From Pelagibacteraceae bacterium AG-345-F21 (GTDB taxonomy: Bacteria > Pseudomonadota > Alphaproteobacteria > Pelagibacterales > Pelagibacteraceae), in the NCBI GenBank assembly GCA_003281795.1, contig QCAW01000012.1, forward strand, positions 1 to 33,877: a stretch of 33,877 nt of DNA, given 5' to 3'. Below are positions 23,999 through 33,262 of this stretch, piece after piece. A model generated the notes under the pieces. The model made no database searches, was not told where the DNA came from, and was given only the letters and a program-made list of their open reading frames with translations. Both the position numbers and the translations under genes were made by a program. Position 1 is the first letter of the stretch. Each line of letters begins with the position of its first letter.

Positions 23999-26900
23999 AT
24001 GGCTCAAAATATTTCTGTACCTGATATTGGTGAATTTAAAGACGTAGAGGTGATTGAGGTTTTGGTTAAACCTGGGGATAAGGTAAATAAAAACGACCCA
24101 ATAGTAACTATAGAAAGTGATAAATCGAGTCTTGAAATTCCTACGCCCTCTACAGGTCTAATAAAAGATTTAAAAGTTAAAGTTGGAGACAAAGTATCAG
24201 AAGGTAGTATTTTAGCTACAATCGAAAATGGGCAAGCACTCACGTCACCAGAAAAAGAAAATCCAAAAAACAAAACTGTTGAGGAAAAAAAAAAAATTAA
24301 CGGAAATTTAAGTCCAATTAAAAAAGTTAAAAAAGTCTTTGCCGAACCGGCATCAAAAGATGACATAGATCCTATAGAAACTAATGAATGGATTGAATCT
24401 TTAAATTCAGTAATTGAAAATGATGGATCGCCTAGGGCAAGTTACTTACTTAATAAAGTAATAGATCAAGCTTACAAATCTGGTTTGGTTCTTCCCGATA
24501 CTAGAACTACTCCATATATAAATACTATTCCTCCTGAAATTGAAATTAAATCACCAGGTGATCAAAAAATTGAAAAAAAAATACGGGCTTATATCAGGTG
24601 GAATGCAGCTGCCATGGTAGTTAAAGCTAACAAGAAAAGTCCAGAGTTAGGTGGTCATATAGGAACTTTTGCATCAGCTGCAACTTTGTACGATGTCGGT
24701 ATGAATCATTTTTGGAGAGCTAAAAATAATAAATTTGGTGGAGATCTAATTTATTTTCAAGGTCATTCTGCTCCTGGAATGTATGCTAGAGCTTTTTTAG
24801 AAGGAAGACTAAGTGCCAATCAACTAGATGGTTTTAGACAAGAAGTTTCTAAAGGTGGATTGTCATCCTACCCTCATCCATGGTTAATGCCAAACTTTTG
24901 GCAGTTTCCTACTGTTTCTATGGGGCTTGGGCCCATAATGGCAATTTATCAAGCGCGTTTCTTAAAATATTTAATTAATAGAGGTTTAGTAAAAGATGAG
25001 GGAAGAAAAATTTGGGTTTTTTTAGGAGATGGTGAGATGGATGAACCTGAGTCACTAGGTGCAATAGGATTAGCTGCTAGAGAAAAACTTGATAATTTAA
25101 TCTTTGTTATTAATTGTAATTTACAACGATTGGATGGACCAGTCAGAGGAAATGGAAAAATTATTCAAGAATTAGAGGGAAGCTTTAGAGGCTCCGGTTG
25201 GAATGTAATTAAAGTTATATGGGGTTCTTATTGGGATCAACTATTAGCAAAAGATAAAACTGGTTTGCTAGTTAAAAGAATGAATGAATGTGTAGATGGT
25301 GAATATCAAGCATTTAAAGCAAAAGGTGGGTCGTATGTAAGGGAAAAATTTTTTGGTAAATATGGTGAATTAAAAGAACTAGTATCAACTATGACAGATA
25401 AAGATATTTGGAGATTAAACAGGGGTGGGCATGATCCTCATAAAGTTTATTCTGCTTATCATTCTGCAATGCAACACAAGGGTTCTCCAACAGTTATACT
25501 TGCAAAAACAATTAAAGGATACGGTATGGGTAAATCGGGTGAAAGTATAAATACAACACATCAGCAAAAAAAACTCGATGAAAAAGATTTGCTATACTAT
25601 AGAGACAGATTCGGTGTTCCTCTTACAGATAAACAAGTTAAAAATATAGAATATTACAAACCTAACGAAAACTCTGAAGAAATAAAATATTTAAAAGATA
25701 AACGATTAAAACTTGGAGGGTTTATTCCAGAAAGATCGTCTTTCTCAAAATCAATCAAAGCTCCTCCTAAGGATATTTTTGAAAATTTTATGAAATCTAC
25801 CGAAGAAAAAGAAATGTCCACAACAATGGCACTTGTTAGAATGCTCACTGCATTATTGCGAGATAAAAGTCTATCACCAAGATTAGTTCCTATAATCCCT
25901 GATGAAGCGCGAACTTTTGGTATGGAGGGATTTTTTCAAAAAATTGGAATTTATGCACATGAAGGTCAAAAGTATGAACCGGTTGACTCTGAACAATTAA
26001 GTTCATACCGAGAAGATAAAAGTGGACAAGTATTAGAGGAAGGAATAACTGAGTCCGGCGCGATGTCATCATGGATTGCTGCAGGCACATCTTACACAAA
26101 TCATGATCTCGAAATGATACCAATTTATATTTTTTATTCTATGTTCGGTTTTCAAAGAGTCGGGGACTTAGCTTGGGCTGCGGGAGACTCACAAGCTAGA
26201 GGCTTTTTAATTGGCGCTACTGCGGGTAGAACAACATTAGCAGGAGAAGGGTTGCAGCACCAAGATGGTCATAGTCATTTATTAGCTTCAAATATTCCTA
26301 ATTGTGTAAGTTACGATCCAACTTTTGCCTACGAAATGGCAACGATATTTAGAGATGGAATTAAAAGAATGCATGAAAAAAAAGAAAATATCTTCTATTA
26401 CATTACTGCAATGAATGAAAATTATTCTCATCCTGAAAAACCAAAGGGTTGTGATGAAGGTATTTTAAAAGGAATGTATCTTTTTAAAGAATTTAATAAA
26501 AAGGGAAAAACAAAAGTTCAACTTTTAGGCTCAGGAACAATATTAAGAGAAATTATATCAGCAGCAAAAATTTTATCTGAAGATTATGGAATAGACTCAG
26601 ATGTATGGAGTATTACAAGTTTTAATGAATTAAGAAGAGACGGTATGGAAATAGAAAGATGGAACCTTTTAAATCCTGACGAAAAAAGGAAAAAATCTTA
26701 TGTTCAACAATGCTTAGAGAAAAGAGATGGCCCAATTATTGCTGCATCTGATTATACAAGATCTTTTTCAGACCAAATAAGACCTTATACTGAAAAACCA
26801 TTTTATTCTTTAGGGACTGATGGATATGGAAGAAGCGATACAAGAAAGAATTTGAGAAAGTTTTTTGAAGTAGACAAAGAGCACATAGTTGCCTACACCT

Positions 26901-27004
26901 TAAGTGCTTTAGCTAAAGAACAACTAATAGAGACAAAACAAGCAGAAAAAGCAATTAAGAAATATAAAATTGATAAAAATAAAGATTTTCCGTCAAACTT
27001 ATAA
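23999..27004 (+). CDS. aceE: Pyruvate dehydrogenase E1 (homodimeric AceE type) with fused N-terminal lipoyl domain
   Basis: A 1001-residue protein that decarboxylates pyruvate with thiamine diphosphate and passes the acetyl group to lipoyl-lysine. Residues 1-78 form a complete lipoyl domain, with lipoylatable Lys42 in ESDKSSLE. A charged Lys/Glu/Pro linker (about 80-120) leads to a full-length E1 beginning DDIDPIETNEW at 121. E1 features include His220, His256 (QGHSAPG), the ThDP motif GDGEMDEP at 343 running to NCN at 372, RLDGPVRGNGK, and DEARTFGMEGFF. Normal AceE is about 890 residues without a lipoyl domain, so the extra 120 residues are a fusion. aceF follows after two bases. No lpd is adjacent, so E3 must be encoded elsewhere. 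Confidence 0.95.
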   Translation: MAQNISVPDIGEFKDVEVIEVLVKPGDKVNKNDPIVTIESDKSSLEIPTPSTGLIKDLKVKVGDKVSEGSILATIENGQALTSPEKENPKNKTVEEKKKINGNLSPIKKVKKVFAEPASKDDIDPIETNEWIESLNSVIENDGSPRASYLLNKVIDQAYKSGLVLPDTRTTPYINTIPPEIEIKSPGDQKIEKKIRAYIRWNAAAMVVKANKKSPELGGHIGTFASAATLYDVGMNHFWRAKNNKFGGDLIYFQGHSAPGMYARAFLEGRLSANQLDGFRQEVSKGGLSSYPHPWLMPNFWQFPTVSMGLGPIMAIYQARFLKYLINRGLVKDEGRKIWVFLGDGEMDEPESLGAIGLAAREKLDNLIFVINCNLQRLDGPVRGNGKIIQELEGSFRGSGWNVIKVIWGSYWDQLLAKDKTGLLVKRMNECVDGEYQAFKAKGGSYVREKFFGKYGELKELVSTMTDKDIWRLNRGGHDPHKVYSAYHSAMQHKGSPTVILAKTIKGYGMGKSGESINTTHQQKKLDEKDLLYYRDRFGVPLTDKQVKNIEYYKPNENSEEIKYLKDKRLKLGGFIPERSSFSKSIKAPPKDIFENFMKSTEEKEMSTTMALVRMLTALLRDKSLSPRLVPIIPDEARTFGMEGFFQKIGIYAHEGQKYEPVDSEQLSSYREDKSGQVLEEGITESGAMSSWIAAGTSYTNHDLEMIPIYIFYSMFGFQRVGDLAWAAGDSQARGFLIGATAGRTTLAGEGLQHQDGHSHLLASNIPNCVSYDPTFAYEMATIFRDGIKRMHEKKENIFYYITAMNENYSHPEKPKGCDEGILKGMYLFKEFNKKGKTKVQLLGSGTILREIISAAKILSEDYGIDSDVWSITSFNELRRDGMEIERWNLLNPDEKRKKSYVQQCLEKRDGPIIAASDYTRSFSDQIRPYTEKPFYSLGTDGYGRSDTRKNLRKFFEVDKEHIVAYTLSALAKEQLIETKQAEKAIKKYKIDKNKDFPSNL

Positions 27005-27006
27005 AT

Positions 27007-28272
27007 ATGACTAGTGCAAAAATTTTAGTTCCTGATATGGGCGACTTCAAGGATGTAGAAGTTATTGAAGTTCTTGTAAAAGAAGGTCAGCAAGTTAAAA
27101 AAAATGATTCTTTAATAACATTAGAAAGCGATAAATCTAGTGTAGAAGTACCCTCTACTCATGAGGGAATGATAGAAAAAATTAATATAAAAGTCGGCAA
27201 TAAAGTAAATCAGGGAGATTTAATTCTTAGTCTTAAATCAGAAAACAAAACTGAAGAAAAAAAGGTAACAGTAAATAAAGATAAAAAAATTGAAAGAAAA
27301 GTAGAAGATAAAAAGTCAGAAGAAATTAAAAAAAAAAAGGAGATTATTCCAACCGCTCCTACCTCACAAGGTGGAACTAAGTCCGCTAGTCCAAAAGTTA
27401 GAAAATTTGCAAGAGAATTAGGCGCAAATGTTCTTGAAATATCTGGATCACAAAGAGCAGGAAGGGTTTCTGAAGAAGATGTAAAAAATTTCATTAGATC
27501 GCAAGTTGCTGTTAGTGGTGGTAGAGTAGAAAAAAAAATCCATAAAGAAGAGTATTCTCATGAAGAGTTTGGAGAAATTGAGTTAAAAGATATTCCGCGA
27601 GTCAAAAAATTATCAGGGCCGCAGCTAGTTAGATCTTGGACAGAAATCCCTCATGTTACGCAGCATGAAGAAATTGATATTACAGAAATGGAACAATTTA
27701 GATCATCTTTGTATGATTATTACTCTGGAGAAATGATAAAAGTAACTCCCCTCGCATTTATATCAAAAGCTTTGGTAAGTGCACTTAAGACTTTTCCAAA
27801 TTTTAATGCCTCGATTGACCCTATCCACAATAAAATAATTTATAAAAAATATTTTCACCTAGGTTTTGCGGTTGACACTCCCCATGGCTTAATGGTGCCT
27901 AAAGTTAGAAATGTAGATCAAATGAGTATAAAAGAAATAGGTGAAGCATTAAAAAAAACAAGTAAACTTTGTAGAGAATTAAAGATAGACAAAAAAGAAT
28001 TTTTTGGGGGATCCATGACAATATCTAGTTTAGGAGGCATTGGAGGAACTTTTTTTACTCCTATAATCAATCCTCCTGAAGTAGCCATACTGGGTATTGG
28101 TAAAAGTTTCGACAAACTAGTGAGATTGAAGGGCAAAATTACCTCTAGAAAAATTTTACCTATTTCTTTGTCTTATGATCACAGAATAATTGATGGTGCA
28201 GAAGGAGCAAGGTTTTGTGTTTATTTGAGCGAATGTTTGGGTAAAGATTTTGCTTTCAAACTTGCTGTTTAA
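27007..28272 (+). CDS. aceF: Pyruvate dehydrogenase E2, dihydrolipoamide acetyltransferase
   Basis: A 421-residue E2 that transfers the acetyl group from lipoamide to CoA and forms the complex core. It has one lipoyl domain (residues 1-78, Lys43 in ESDKSSVE), a Lys/Glu-rich linker (80-120), the peripheral-subunit binding domain (about 127-164, SPKVRKFARELGANV) and the catalytic domain from about 190, with His392 and Asp396 in SYDHRIIDG. The E. coli enzyme has three lipoyl domains; here E2 keeps one and the upstream E1 carries a closely similar one, sharing the run FKDVEVIEVLVK. It is cotranscribed with aceE (two-base gap). Confidence 0.96.
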   Translation: MTSAKILVPDMGDFKDVEVIEVLVKEGQQVKKNDSLITLESDKSSVEVPSTHEGMIEKINIKVGNKVNQGDLILSLKSENKTEEKKVTVNKDKKIERKVEDKKSEEIKKKKEIIPTAPTSQGGTKSASPKVRKFARELGANVLEISGSQRAGRVSEEDVKNFIRSQVAVSGGRVEKKIHKEEYSHEEFGEIELKDIPRVKKLSGPQLVRSWTEIPHVTQHEEIDITEMEQFRSSLYDYYSGEMIKVTPLAFISKALVSALKTFPNFNASIDPIHNKIIYKKYFHLGFAVDTPHGLMVPKVRNVDQMSIKEIGEALKKTSKLCRELKIDKKEFFGGSMTISSLGGIGGTFFTPIINPPEVAILGIGKSFDKLVRLKGKITSRKILPISLSYDHRIIDGAEGARFCVYLSECLGKDFAFKLAV

Positions 28273-29832: not shown

Positions 29833-32181
29833 TTAGTGAGTTTTATCAAGGGGAGAACTTTTTCCAAATTTGTAATTTGTATATCCAAACAGAGATAGTA
29901 ATAGTAAAGCGAAAGGATAAACAATCCATTTGTTCGGTCGATCTGGATTTTCTATCTTAAAATTACTAATTATATCACCCATTTGCATACCTGACTTTTT
30001 TGCAAGTCCCTTCCAGTTCAGTTTGTCTACAACAACTTTATTATTATCTTTACCTAAATTAACTCCAAAGTCCTCTAGATTATAATCATTTTCAAACATT
30101 CCTGTATCAATCACAAATAATTTGTATCTTTCTCCGTATTCAGTAACTCTGGTTACTTTAATATGTACTTCTTTTGAAGGATCAAAAGTTAAACTTTGGA
30201 TTGATTTAGATGATAAATTTTGTTCATTAAATTTAGGATAAAATTTACTTAAAACATAATCTGGAGCTAAAAAAGACAAAGCAATAATTAAGAAAGCTAT
30301 AATTTCATACCATCTTAATTTATTTATAAACCATTGTTGAGATGCTGCAGTAAAAACTAAAATCCCAATTAAAGAAGTGACTATAACTATTAAAGCTTGC
30401 CATATATTATCTACCCCAATTAATAAAAGCTCATGATTAAACAAAAAGACTATAGGCAGTATACCTGTTCTTAAACTGTACCATATGGCTTGAAGTCCTG
30501 TTCTTAAAGGATCTCCACCTGAAATTGCTGCTGCAGCATAAGATGCAAGACCTACTGGTGGCGTTACATCAGCCATCAAACCAAAATAGAATACAAATAA
30601 ATGAACTGCAATTAATGGAAAAATAAAACCAGAAGCGTTCCCAACATCAACAAGAACTGTCGCCATAAGCGAAGCTACTACAACATAATTTGCAGTAGTT
30701 GGAAGACCCATGCCTAGAAGCAAACAAAGTATAATAGTAAGTAATATCAATATTATTACATTGTCTCTAGCGATTGTCTCTATTACTATAATTAAATTAG
30801 TACTCAATCCTGTAGAACCAACTGCTCCTACTATTATACCAGCTGTTGCAATAGCAATTCCAACACCCACCATATTAATTGCTCCTTTTTGAAGGCCTAC
30901 TATGGTTTGATTATACCAATCAATTAATCCAGTTTTGAAATTTGGATTTTTAATAACTCTATTGACTAAATTAACTAATATTAGTGAGATAGTAGCATAG
31001 AAAATTGAAAAGCCTGCGGTATATCTCATGTAGACAAGTAAAAAAATTAAAACAAAGATTGGAATTAAAAAATGCAAGCCAGATAAAAATGTTTTCTTTA
31101 AATGTGGTACATCAGCATCATCCATTCCTTTAAGACCTAACTTAAGAGCTTCAAGATGAGATATATAAAACAAAGCAATATATGAAATCACAGCGGGTAA
31201 AAAAGCATGTTTTACTACTTCAAAATAAGTAACTCCAATAAAACTTGCCATCACAAATGCTGCGGCACCCATAACTGGGGGCATTATTTGTCCATTGACA
31301 GAAGATGAAACTTCAATTGCTCCCGCTTTTTCCTTGGAGAAACCAGTTTTTTTCATGATAGGAATTGTAAAAGTTCCTGTTGTAACTGTGTTAGCAATAG
31401 ATGAGCCTGAAATCATGCCTGTCATTCCTGATCCCAAAATAGCTGCCTTTGCCGGTCCACCTCTCATCTTCCCCACCATCGCAAAAGCTAGATCTAAAAA
31501 ATATTTTCCACCACCTGCTGTTTCTAATAAAGCTCCAAATAAAACAAATAAAAATATGAAATCTACCGAGACGCCTATCGGTATCCCAAATATTGCTTCT
31601 TGATCAAACCATTGAAATCCTACTAATCTTTTTACAGATAGACCGCCATGAGAAATTATATCTGGAGCATATTTCCCAAAATAAGAAAATAGTAAAAAAC
31701 AGACTGCGATAACGACTAGAGGCAAACCTATTGCTCGTCTTGTAGCTTCTAAAAGTATTAAAATACCAATTGCACCTATAATAAGTTCAACTGGAATTTT
31801 AAATCCAAATATATCTTTAACTAAAAGTATTCCGCCTCTATTAACTAAATCATCGTAAAAAAAATAAATATATAAACAACAAAATGCAGCTACTATACTA
31901 ATGAGTACATCAAATGCTGAAATTTTTTTTCCCTTAATTGCTGGAAAAATCAGAAAAGTTAACGTTAAAGCAAACCCTAAATGAATAGCTCTAGCAGGTA
32001 AACCTTTAAACATTCCAAAATTAAACCAAAAAGGAAATGGAGAAGCGTACCAAAGTTGAAATAGTGTCCAGAGAATAGCAATACCAAAAACTATTTTTAA
32101 ATGAATGCCCGACAAGTTTCGTGTAGGTGAAATATCTTCTTGAATTTTATCTTTAATCTTATTTTGAATTTTTTGGCTCAT
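29833..32181 (-). CDS. TRAP transporter fused permease, TAXI type (DctQM fusion) with C-terminal DUF3394-like domain
   Basis: A 782-residue inner-membrane protein. The N-terminal part (about residues 25-190) is the four-helix small permease. The large DctM part follows, with GALLETAGGGKYFLDLAFAMVGKMRGGPAKAAILGSGMTGMISGSS and SSSVNGQIMPPVMGAAAFVMA-like ion/substrate loops, and further GLPTTANYVVVASL and ADVTPPVGLASYAAAAISGGDPLRTG. From about residue 660 a soluble domain holds a PDZ-like patch (KKSGMQMGDIIS), then a final helix, matching the DUF3394 tail of some TRAP permeases. It uses Na+ or H+ to import a small organic acid bound by the TAXI protein encoded upstream. Confidence 0.94.
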   Translation of the reverse strand: MSQKIQNKIKDKIQEDISPTRNLSGIHLKIVFGIAILWTLFQLWYASPFPFWFNFGMFKGLPARAIHLGFALTLTFLIFPAIKGKKISAFDVLISIVAAFCCLYIYFFYDDLVNRGGILLVKDIFGFKIPVELIIGAIGILILLEATRRAIGLPLVVIAVCFLLFSYFGKYAPDIISHGGLSVKRLVGFQWFDQEAIFGIPIGVSVDFIFLFVLFGALLETAGGGKYFLDLAFAMVGKMRGGPAKAAILGSGMTGMISGSSIANTVTTGTFTIPIMKKTGFSKEKAGAIEVSSSVNGQIMPPVMGAAAFVMASFIGVTYFEVVKHAFLPAVISYIALFYISHLEALKLGLKGMDDADVPHLKKTFLSGLHFLIPIFVLIFLLVYMRYTAGFSIFYATISLILVNLVNRVIKNPNFKTGLIDWYNQTIVGLQKGAINMVGVGIAIATAGIIVGAVGSTGLSTNLIIVIETIARDNVIILILLTIILCLLLGMGLPTTANYVVVASLMATVLVDVGNASGFIFPLIAVHLFVFYFGLMADVTPPVGLASYAAAAISGGDPLRTGLQAIWYSLRTGILPIVFLFNHELLLIGVDNIWQALIVIVTSLIGILVFTAASQQWFINKLRWYEIIAFLIIALSFLAPDYVLSKFYPKFNEQNLSSKSIQSLTFDPSKEVHIKVTRVTEYGERYKLFVIDTGMFENDYNLEDFGVNLGKDNNKVVVDKLNWKGLAKKSGMQMGDIISNFKIENPDRPNKWIVYPFALLLLSLFGYTNYKFGKSSPLDKTH

Positions 32182-32257: not shown

Positions 32258-33262
32258 TTACATTAATCCAGCTTCTTTATAGTACTTAATTGCACCAGGA
32301 TGTAATGGAGCTGATAAACCATCAGCTATCATGTTTTTCTTTTCCAAAGGTCCAAATGCAGGATGTTGATCTCTAAAAGAATCAAAGTTTTCCATAACTG
32401 CTTTAGTTACCAAGTATACAAGTTCTTCAGAAACATCAGCACTTGTTACAACTGTAGCTTTTACACCAAAAGTTGTGGCATCTTTTTTCTGATTTGAGTA
32501 AGTACCTGCTGGAATTACAGCTTTAGCATAATAGTCAGCTCCGTCAATTAAACCTTGAACTGGCGCGCCAGTTAAATTAATCGGGCTAGCTTTCGCTTTA
32601 CAAGTTGCTGCTTGCTCCATAGCACCATTAGGAAATCCTACTGAATATCCGAAAGCATCTATTTTACCATCACAAAGAGCTTTTACTTGTTCTGATGAAG
32701 TAAGTTCAGTAGTAGCTTTAAACATACTCATGTCTGCTCCCATAGCTTTCATTAGTTCTTCCATAGTACCTCTTTGACCAGAACCTGGATTACCAATGTT
32801 AACTGTTTTTCCTTTTAAGCCTTTAAAATCTTTAATTTTAGATTTTTTACTTGCCCAAATTTGAAATGGCTCATTGTGGACTGAGAACACAGCTCTTAAA
32901 TTGCTAAATTGTTTGCCTTCCCATTTGCTTGATCCGTTGTAAGCATGGAATTGCCAGTCAGACTGTGCAACACCAAATTGAAACTCGCCATCTTTAATTT
33001 GTCCAATATTATAGTTTGAACCACCTGTTGAAGGTGCAGTACATCTGTATGCTTTAGCTGTACCTTTTTTTCTACCGTGATCAGCGCTTATTGCTGATTT
33101 GTGAAGCATTTTACAAATAGCATTACCTGTTTGAAAATAAACTCCAGTCGGTCCGCCTGTTCCTATCGTAAAGAACTCAGCTGATTTTGCGATTGAAGTA
33201 ATAGAGCTTGAAAAAGCAAACATTACTAGTATCGCAGAAATCAATGACATTATTTTTTTCAT
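32258..33262 (-). CDS. TAXI-family TRAP transporter solute-binding protein
   Basis: A 334-residue periplasmic protein. The signal peptide is MKKIMSLISAILVMFAFSSS with probable cleavage after SIAKSA (about residue 28). The mature start EFFTIGTGGPTGVYFQTGNAIC is the TAXI family hallmark. Other family marks are QFGVAQSDWQFHAY, KGLKGKTVNIGNPGSGQRGT and VYLVTKAVMEN. TAXI proteins feed TRAP permeases; known ligands are mostly glutamate-like or other small carboxylates, not predictable here. Cys51 and Cys72 may form a disulfide. It has a strong promoter and GGGGGA Shine-Dalgarno and is followed by a terminator, all consistent with high expression. Confidence 0.96.
   Translation of the reverse strand: MKKIMSLISAILVMFAFSSSITSIAKSAEFFTIGTGGPTGVYFQTGNAICKMLHKSAISADHGRKKGTAKAYRCTAPSTGGSNYNIGQIKDGEFQFGVAQSDWQFHAYNGSSKWEGKQFSNLRAVFSVHNEPFQIWASKKSKIKDFKGLKGKTVNIGNPGSGQRGTMEELMKAMGADMSMFKATTELTSSEQVKALCDGKIDAFGYSVGFPNGAMEQAATCKAKASPINLTGAPVQGLIDGADYYAKAVIPAGTYSNQKKDATTFGVKATVVTSADVSEELVYLVTKAVMENFDSFRDQHPAFGPLEKKNMIADGLSAPLHPGAIKYYKEAGLM

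Follow-up and report, generated by a model that had tools for sequence, protein, structure and literature searches.

Textbooks define 2-oxoacid dehydrogenase complexes, and their acetyltransferase component (E2), partly by the swinging arm that E2 bears. We analyzed a stretch of 33,877 nucleotides from Pelagibacteraceae bacterium AG-345-F21 (contig QCAW01000012.1, positions 1 to 33,877 of the forward strand), referred to here as the window. Its aceE gene encodes a pyruvate dehydrogenase (E1) with a lipoyl domain of its own at the N-terminus, and in 34 related loci of the SAR11 bacteria the E2 gene that directly follows aceE encodes no lipoyl domain at all; we call such an E2 armless. On the strength of sequence comparisons, the pyruvate dehydrogenase (PDH) complex of SAR11 quite probably has a functional arm on E1, which would have made the E2 arm redundant, with the E2 arm lost independently at least five times and E1 the sole carrier where this has happened. 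It also seems likely, with slightly less assurance, that the arm moved wholly from E2 to E1 in several SAR11 lineages, at least five times after one fusion, leaving an armless E2 that would dock its partners and transfer acetyl groups to coenzyme A.

The features of the fusion gene and of the adjoining E2 gene are given below with the evidence for each.

23999 to 27004 (+): aceE fusion gene, comprising lipoyl domain, linker and homodimeric-type pyruvate dehydrogenase E1, 1001 amino acids (open reading frame, Pfam, NCBIfam and solved-chain alignment)
23999 to 24232 (+): E1 lipoyl domain of the AceF type (VPDIGEFKDVEVIEVLVK...ESDKSS), residues 1-78 (Pfam match, alignment and beta fold)
24122 to 24124 (+): codon for Lys42, the predicted lipoylation site (conservation of the ESDKS motif)
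24233 to 24361 (+): charged linker, predicted to be disordered, about residues 79-121 (sequence, linker comparison and AlphaFold2)
24362 to 24487 (+): N-terminal segment of AceE, residues 122-163, presumed to dock on E2 (aligns with residues 6-48 of 9h1n_C)
24353 to 26992 (+): catalytic body of AceE, residues 119-998 (TIGR00759)
27007 to 28272 (+): aceF (E2, 421 amino acids), which starts 2 nucleotides past the aceE stop codon (open reading frame, Pfam and NCBIfam)
27019 to 27231 (+): sole lipoyl domain of the window E2, residues 5-75 (Pfam), absent from the E2 of 34 relatives and of three more
27385 to 27486 (+): E2 peripheral-subunit (E1/E3) binding domain, residues 127-160 (PF02817)
27592 to 28239 (+): E2 acetyltransferase catalytic domain, residues 196-411 (PF00198)

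The aceE reading frame begins with ATG and has no internal stops. Its lipoyl domain is complete: the Biotin_lipoyl profile (PF00364) matches residues 4-75 over profile positions 2-73 of 73 (E value 1.1e-20, 73.7 bits), and Lys42 is the lysine of the ESDKS motif. AlphaFold2 predicts a beta domain for residues 1-78 (predicted local distance difference test of 70-88 by block), followed by a stretch of low confidence. The remainder is a full-length member of the homodimeric type of E1 (AceE, TIGR00759), scoring 1443 bits against a curated cut-off of 859.9 and covering profile positions 2-882 of 885. On the question of specificity for pyruvate as opposed to 2-oxoglutarate, the exception model AKGDH_not_PDH is outscored by TIGR00759 and reaches 1275, compared with its own cut-off of 1408. 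Residues 121-998 align with residues 6-883 of the solved Escherichia coli-type AceE, and Pfam places Transketolase_N at residues 192-407, PDH_E1_M at 600-812 and Transketolase_C_1 at 825-959. The N-terminal segment of AceE, which we take to dock on the E2 binding domain, matches the solved 49-residue E1 chain 9h1n_C at the level of sequence. Thus, the reading frame, Pfam and NCBIfam agree with the original prediction, made from the DNA letters, of a complete lipoyl domain with Lys42 and a charged linker ahead of a full-length AceE.

The E2 of the window has the canonical make-up of at least one lipoyl domain, a binding domain and an acetyltransferase domain. The genome to which the window belongs (974,939 bases, 85% complete) yields four biotin/lipoyl matches, namely AceE, AceF, a SucB-like E2 and a 156-residue frame resembling biotin carboxyl carrier protein (BCCP). 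The gene for the E3 component adjoins sucB in this genome. A search for E3 succeeded in 9 of 11 genomes, and the E3 genes detected lack a lipoyl domain.

The fusion is not peculiar to this contig. A scan for relatives returned at least 541, and the best 80, all assigned to Pelagibacteraceae or Pelagibacter, have a lipoyl domain in frame ahead of AceE in every case (the contig of L037 begins inside the domain). The same is true of every other fetched Pelagibacteraceae aceEF locus with its start in view; contig ends cut L105-L107 and L153 where the domain would be, and in L108 a frameshift where the linker is rich in A leaves an intact lipoyl domain in a separate frame just upstream. TIGR00759 matches 255 of the 297 genomes of the family. 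Among the 150 family matches listed, the AceE frames have 998-1071 residues in all but four genomes (G875, G827, G944 and G959); these are the contig-cut loci L105-L107 and, in G959, the frameshifted L108. The fusion is also present in the one-contig genomes G158, G267, G357 and G842.

Outside the family, no lipoyl domain was found on AceE in any of the 23 loci inspected. These comprise all 15 listed AceE frames of at least 957 residues (14 from a phylum sample and one from Alphaproteobacteria) together with eight shorter ones. AceE is present in 161 of 398 genomes of the phylum sample and in 11 of 385 genomes of Alphaproteobacteria, five of them in the family of the window. Inspection in the phylum sample covered the 150 matches listed, among which the other frames under 957 residues were taken as too short. 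Within the sample examined, the fusion therefore occurs throughout Pelagibacteraceae and nowhere else. The original prediction had named two ways in which it could be wrong, an assembly error or frameshift that joined two genes and a domain search that revealed the fusion to be the usual form of AceE in most bacteria; neither applies, given the relatives and one-contig genomes in the first case and the 23 loci outside the family in the second. In a quick tree of 50 AceE bodies, a branch with full support sets the fused sequences apart from the rest, and the fusion seems to have been gained once. Two observations concern aceE elsewhere in the material. At G022:C4:4904-7545, an AceE with internal stops (two TGA and one TAA) is either a pseudogene or the product of sequencing errors. 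In the other sampled family of the order (24 genomes, G037-G060), only weak transketolase-like matches to aceE were detected, and there was no match to E1-beta at E <= 1e-60 except in G041 (below the cut-off and with an internal stop).

Armless E2s are numerous among these relatives. In the best 80 loci, E2 has one lipoyl domain in 49 (one of these E2s is cut by a contig end), is armless in 27 and is not in view in four. Once other fetched genomes are added, an armless E2 directly follows aceE in 34 SAR11 loci; three further loci have an armless E2, two with the fused lipoyl domain on E1 (L157 and L158) and one in which aceE is cut by the contig end (L153). The 34 armless frames have 304-323 residues and a first methionine codon 0-6 nucleotides past the aceE stop. 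Only 7-10 residues separate this methionine from the binding-domain motif that follows, too few to hold a lipoyl domain. The 34 relatives thus lack even the single lipoyl domain expected of a canonical E2 and retain its binding and catalytic domains: each of the 34 has both the motif of the binding domain and the catalytic motif SYDHR[IVL]IDG (H-x-x-x-D-G). One locus differs in that the lipoyl-AceE gene at L034:4495-7533 has no aceF within 4.5 kb downstream, the next long frame being on the opposite strand; aceF has moved or been lost there.

A census of the family detected E2 in 254 of 297 genomes. Among the 150 E2 rows listed (149 genomes), 41 are armless by length (300-325 residues, nine genera), 106 have the length of a one-domain E2 and two lie between. 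Because the rows are ordered by their score with a profile built mostly from armless E2s, the share of 41 in 149 is not an estimate of their frequency. The contigs that carry armless E2s include ones of 263 kb and 563 kb.

We also searched the armless genomes with PF00364 for other carriers (18 + 22 = 40 handles; at least five genomes are in both sets, which leaves no more than 35 different ones). Strong matches were confined to AceE (in G959, a frameshifted frame of 104 residues), frames of SucB length (434-469 residues), frames of BCCP length (119-167 residues) and a cut 216-residue frame near a contig end in G919. SucB and BCCP are assigned by frame length, except in the genome of the window. 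A few weak, partial matches of about 20-23 bits were also present. Some incomplete genomes miss one or two of the set: G1080 has AceE alone, and G812, in which aceE is cut by a contig end, has the BCCP-like frame alone. Eight of the armless genomes are rated 90% complete or better with contamination of 5% or less; all belong to genus g6, and each of them has an AceE, a SucB-like and a BCCP-like frame.

The armless state is scattered over the family. The trees were built from 50 of 112 E1 rows, after removal of those more than 96% identical to another in the same state and of those whose E2 is cut by a contig end; loci with no E2 in view (L034, for example) are excluded. On the AceE tree, the distribution of the E2 lipoyl domain requires at least six changes, five of them forced by well-supported branches. 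The tree of the E2 binding-plus-catalytic part requires at least eight, again with five forced, and rejects a single armless clade (approximately unbiased (AU) test, p 1.1e-53). By the same test, spread of one armless E2 allele by recombination is ruled out for the part comprising binding domain and core. We favour loss of the E2 lipoyl domain over its regain for two reasons: every E2 in view outside the family and in the lineages of genera g5 and g460 has a lipoyl domain, and the lipoyl domains of most SAR11 E2s group apart from those of E1 (weakly resolved, 71 columns). Repeated loss of an E2 domain would fit the genome streamlining that the original prediction suggested; the tendency towards a longer E1 linker beside armless E2s, described below, is set against that fit.

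As to the source of the fused domain, a resident E1-beta lipoyl domain of the alphaproteobacterial kind is ruled out, given that the fused domain belongs to the AceF class. The genome of the window contains no match to NF008854, the E1-beta lipoyl fusion, at E <= 1e-60. With 71 columns, the alignment is too short to choose between an AceF lipoyl domain and a lipoyl-bearing E3 as donor. A phage collection held nothing close, the best match having 59.1% identity.

Several properties suggest that the E1 domain and the armless E2 are working parts. The ESDKS motif is kept in 97 of 97 fused lipoyl domains (95 loci, near-copies included). Across 13 locus pairs, the proportion of nonsynonymous differences (pN) in the E1 lipoyl domain is 0-0.10, compared with 0.18-0.75 for synonymous differences (pS); for E2, armless or not, the values are 0.02-0.17 and 0.18-0.71. 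Nonsynonymous differences are far rarer than synonymous ones in the E1 body also, and the linker is looser. The E1 lipoyl domain, the E1 body and E2 are thus under purifying selection. For E. coli E2p, PMC8421416 describes contact of the lipoyl domain with R407 through E242 and D244, with K391 and K396 also at the interface. All 14 E2s compared, of which 13 are armless, have an arginine at the position of E. coli R407, and the acidic E and D before the lipoyl lysine are kept (ESDK). The E1 linker has 50-69 residues beside armless E2s (12 rows), compared with 45-56, plus 66 and 67 in g460, beside the others (22 rows; Mann-Whitney p 3e-4). Lengthening of the linker with loss of the E2 arm is suggestive, but loses its significance when phylogeny is taken into account.

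On these grounds, we propose that the N-terminal AceF-type lipoyl domain of AceE would be lipoylated on Lys42 and would receive its acetyl group in an active site of E1. With E1 docked on the E2 binding domain, the linker would let the E1 arm reach the E2 core and then E3. If the E1-borne arm works, the E2 arm is dispensable, and its redundancy could have led to repeated loss. In armless lineages, E1 would be the only carrier of an arm, and E2 would consist of a binding domain and an acetyltransferase.

A number of observations weigh against this proposal. The changes counted on the trees cannot separate gain from loss, and their number may be inflated by recombination of the N-terminal segment. 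Residues corresponding to the lipoyl contacts K391 and K396 of E. coli are not kept in SAR11 E2s. When the linker trend is examined with phylogeny, five supported pairs give a mean of 3.3 in the same direction and 0.0 in the opposite one (median sign-test p 0.25), and L011 shows no lengthening. AlphaFold2 models are poor for the E1 body and for E2, and the model of E1 beyond its lipoyl domain and the adjoining stretch was not used. LipA was detected in 8 of 11 genomes, the exceptions being G805, G1080 and the genome of the window, which is 85% complete. Finally, no armless E2 occurs in one-contig genomes among the rows listed.

This last point, together with the predominance of single-cell and metagenome assemblies, the frameshift in L108 and the internal stops in G022, might suggest that the architecture is an artefact of assembly, sequencing or gene calling. 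We regard this as very improbable, in that the fusion recurs in 80 of 80 relatives and in four one-contig genomes, and armless E2s recur in 34 loci and across nine genera, including on the long contigs noted above. It is also possible, although unlikely, that PDH in armless lineages borrows the lipoyl domain of SucB, much as OdhA does that of AceF, and that the E1 domain serves only in assembly or regulation. Use of lipoyl groups in trans is established for OdhA (PMC10415282 and PMC7568260); most armless genomes searched have a SucB-like lipoyl frame, and the E3 gene lies beside sucB in the genome of the window. However, the E1 domain keeps its lysine motif in 97 of 97 cases and belongs to the AceF type, unlike the SAR11 SucB domain examined, and loss of the E2 arm while the E1 arm is kept fits a working E1 arm better. 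Less probable again is a reading in which the lipoyl domain of E1 is no more than a passive relic and PDH in armless lineages is inactive or its E2 has another role. The absence of aceF from view in 4 of the 80 best loci (three at contig ends, and L034, where it is absent from the 4.5 kb downstream) would accord with such decay, but the purifying selection, the intact catalytic motifs of armless E2s and the preserved spacing of the aceE-aceF operon do not.

The original prediction supposed one arm on E2 and one on E1. This describes the genome of the window, but it is only one of four lipoyl states in Pelagibacteraceae: one domain on E1 and one on E2; two on E1 and one on E2; one on E1 and two on E2, one of the latter without the lysine; and one on E1 with none on E2. 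Two tandem lipoyl domains on E1 characterize genus g5 (L102 and L104, frames of 1113 and 1111 residues); in L102, the second is nearest to the E2 lipoyl domain of the same genome (85/70). This genome also has a second AceE (L103:5425-8112, reverse strand) without a lipoyl domain and with no E2 beside it, possibly akin to the extra aceE copies of subclade IIIa mentioned in PMC10030771. In genus g460 (L106, L109 and L118), E2 has two lipoyl domains, the second strongly diverged and lacking the lysine (EDEENAYE or similar in place of ESDKSS), which marks it, on its sequence, as dead or repurposed.

The SAR11 complex resembles the E. coli-type AceE-AceF PDH in its homodimeric E1 (TIGR00759), its AceF-type E2 with lipoyl, binding and catalytic domains, and its aceE-aceF operon. 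Outside SAR11, however, such complexes carry one to three lipoyl domains on E2 (15 of 15 loci with E2 in view) and none on E1 (0 of 23), whereas SAR11 has one or two on E1 and two, one or none on E2. A lipoyl domain at the N-terminus of an E1 chain is shared with the alphaproteobacterial E1-beta (NF008854/PRK11892), which nevertheless belongs to another E1 family and has a lipoyl domain of another class (MPALSPTMTEG...ETDKATMEVE). Among 96 genomes searched, 74 have a match to the E1-beta profile, and in 52 of the 74 it begins within the first four profile positions; at E1-beta loci of other Alphaproteobacteria, E2 retains its lipoyl domain in 17 of 17 in view. Thus, the original statement that lipoyl domains sit on E2, or sometimes E3, rather than on E1 was apt for AceE, for which the arrangement is indeed unusual, but too broad for E1 in general, as alphaproteobacterial E1-beta often has one. 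Lipoyl-bearing E3 (for example, chain 5u25) likewise places the domain on a component other than E2; in SAR11, it is E1 and not the E3 found that has it. The actinobacterial OdhA/KGD, a two-in-one 2-oxoglutarate dehydrogenase described in PMC10415282, is similar to the armless E2 in being an acyltransferase that depends on the lipoyl groups of another protein. It takes them in trans from E2p, whereas the candidate arm in SAR11 is on the partner E1, encoded in the same operon.

Searches of open-licence papers gave no account of AceE fused to a lipoyl domain, nor of a PDH E2 that lacks its arm. Of the SAR11 subclades, PMC10030771 records aceEF in I, II, IIIa and LD12, with several aceE copies in IIIa, and its main text contains no word beginning with "lipoyl." Elsewhere in the window, a fused tripartite ATP-independent periplasmic (TRAP) transporter permease with a C-terminal DUF3394 (29833 to 32181, reverse strand) adjoins a gene for a TRAP-associated extracytoplasmic immunogenic (TAXI) solute-binding protein at 32258 to 33262.

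SAR11 bacteria are, according to PMC10030771, the most abundant heterotrophs among oceanic bacterioplankton. If the proposal is correct, their PDH with a lipoyl-free E2 would show that the swinging arm can sit on the very enzyme that loads it, and that a 2-oxoacid dehydrogenase complex can be organized around an arm borne by E1. The family constitutes a natural series, with two, one or no arms on E2 and one or two on E1, in which the number of arms, their position and the reach of the linker become directly testable questions.

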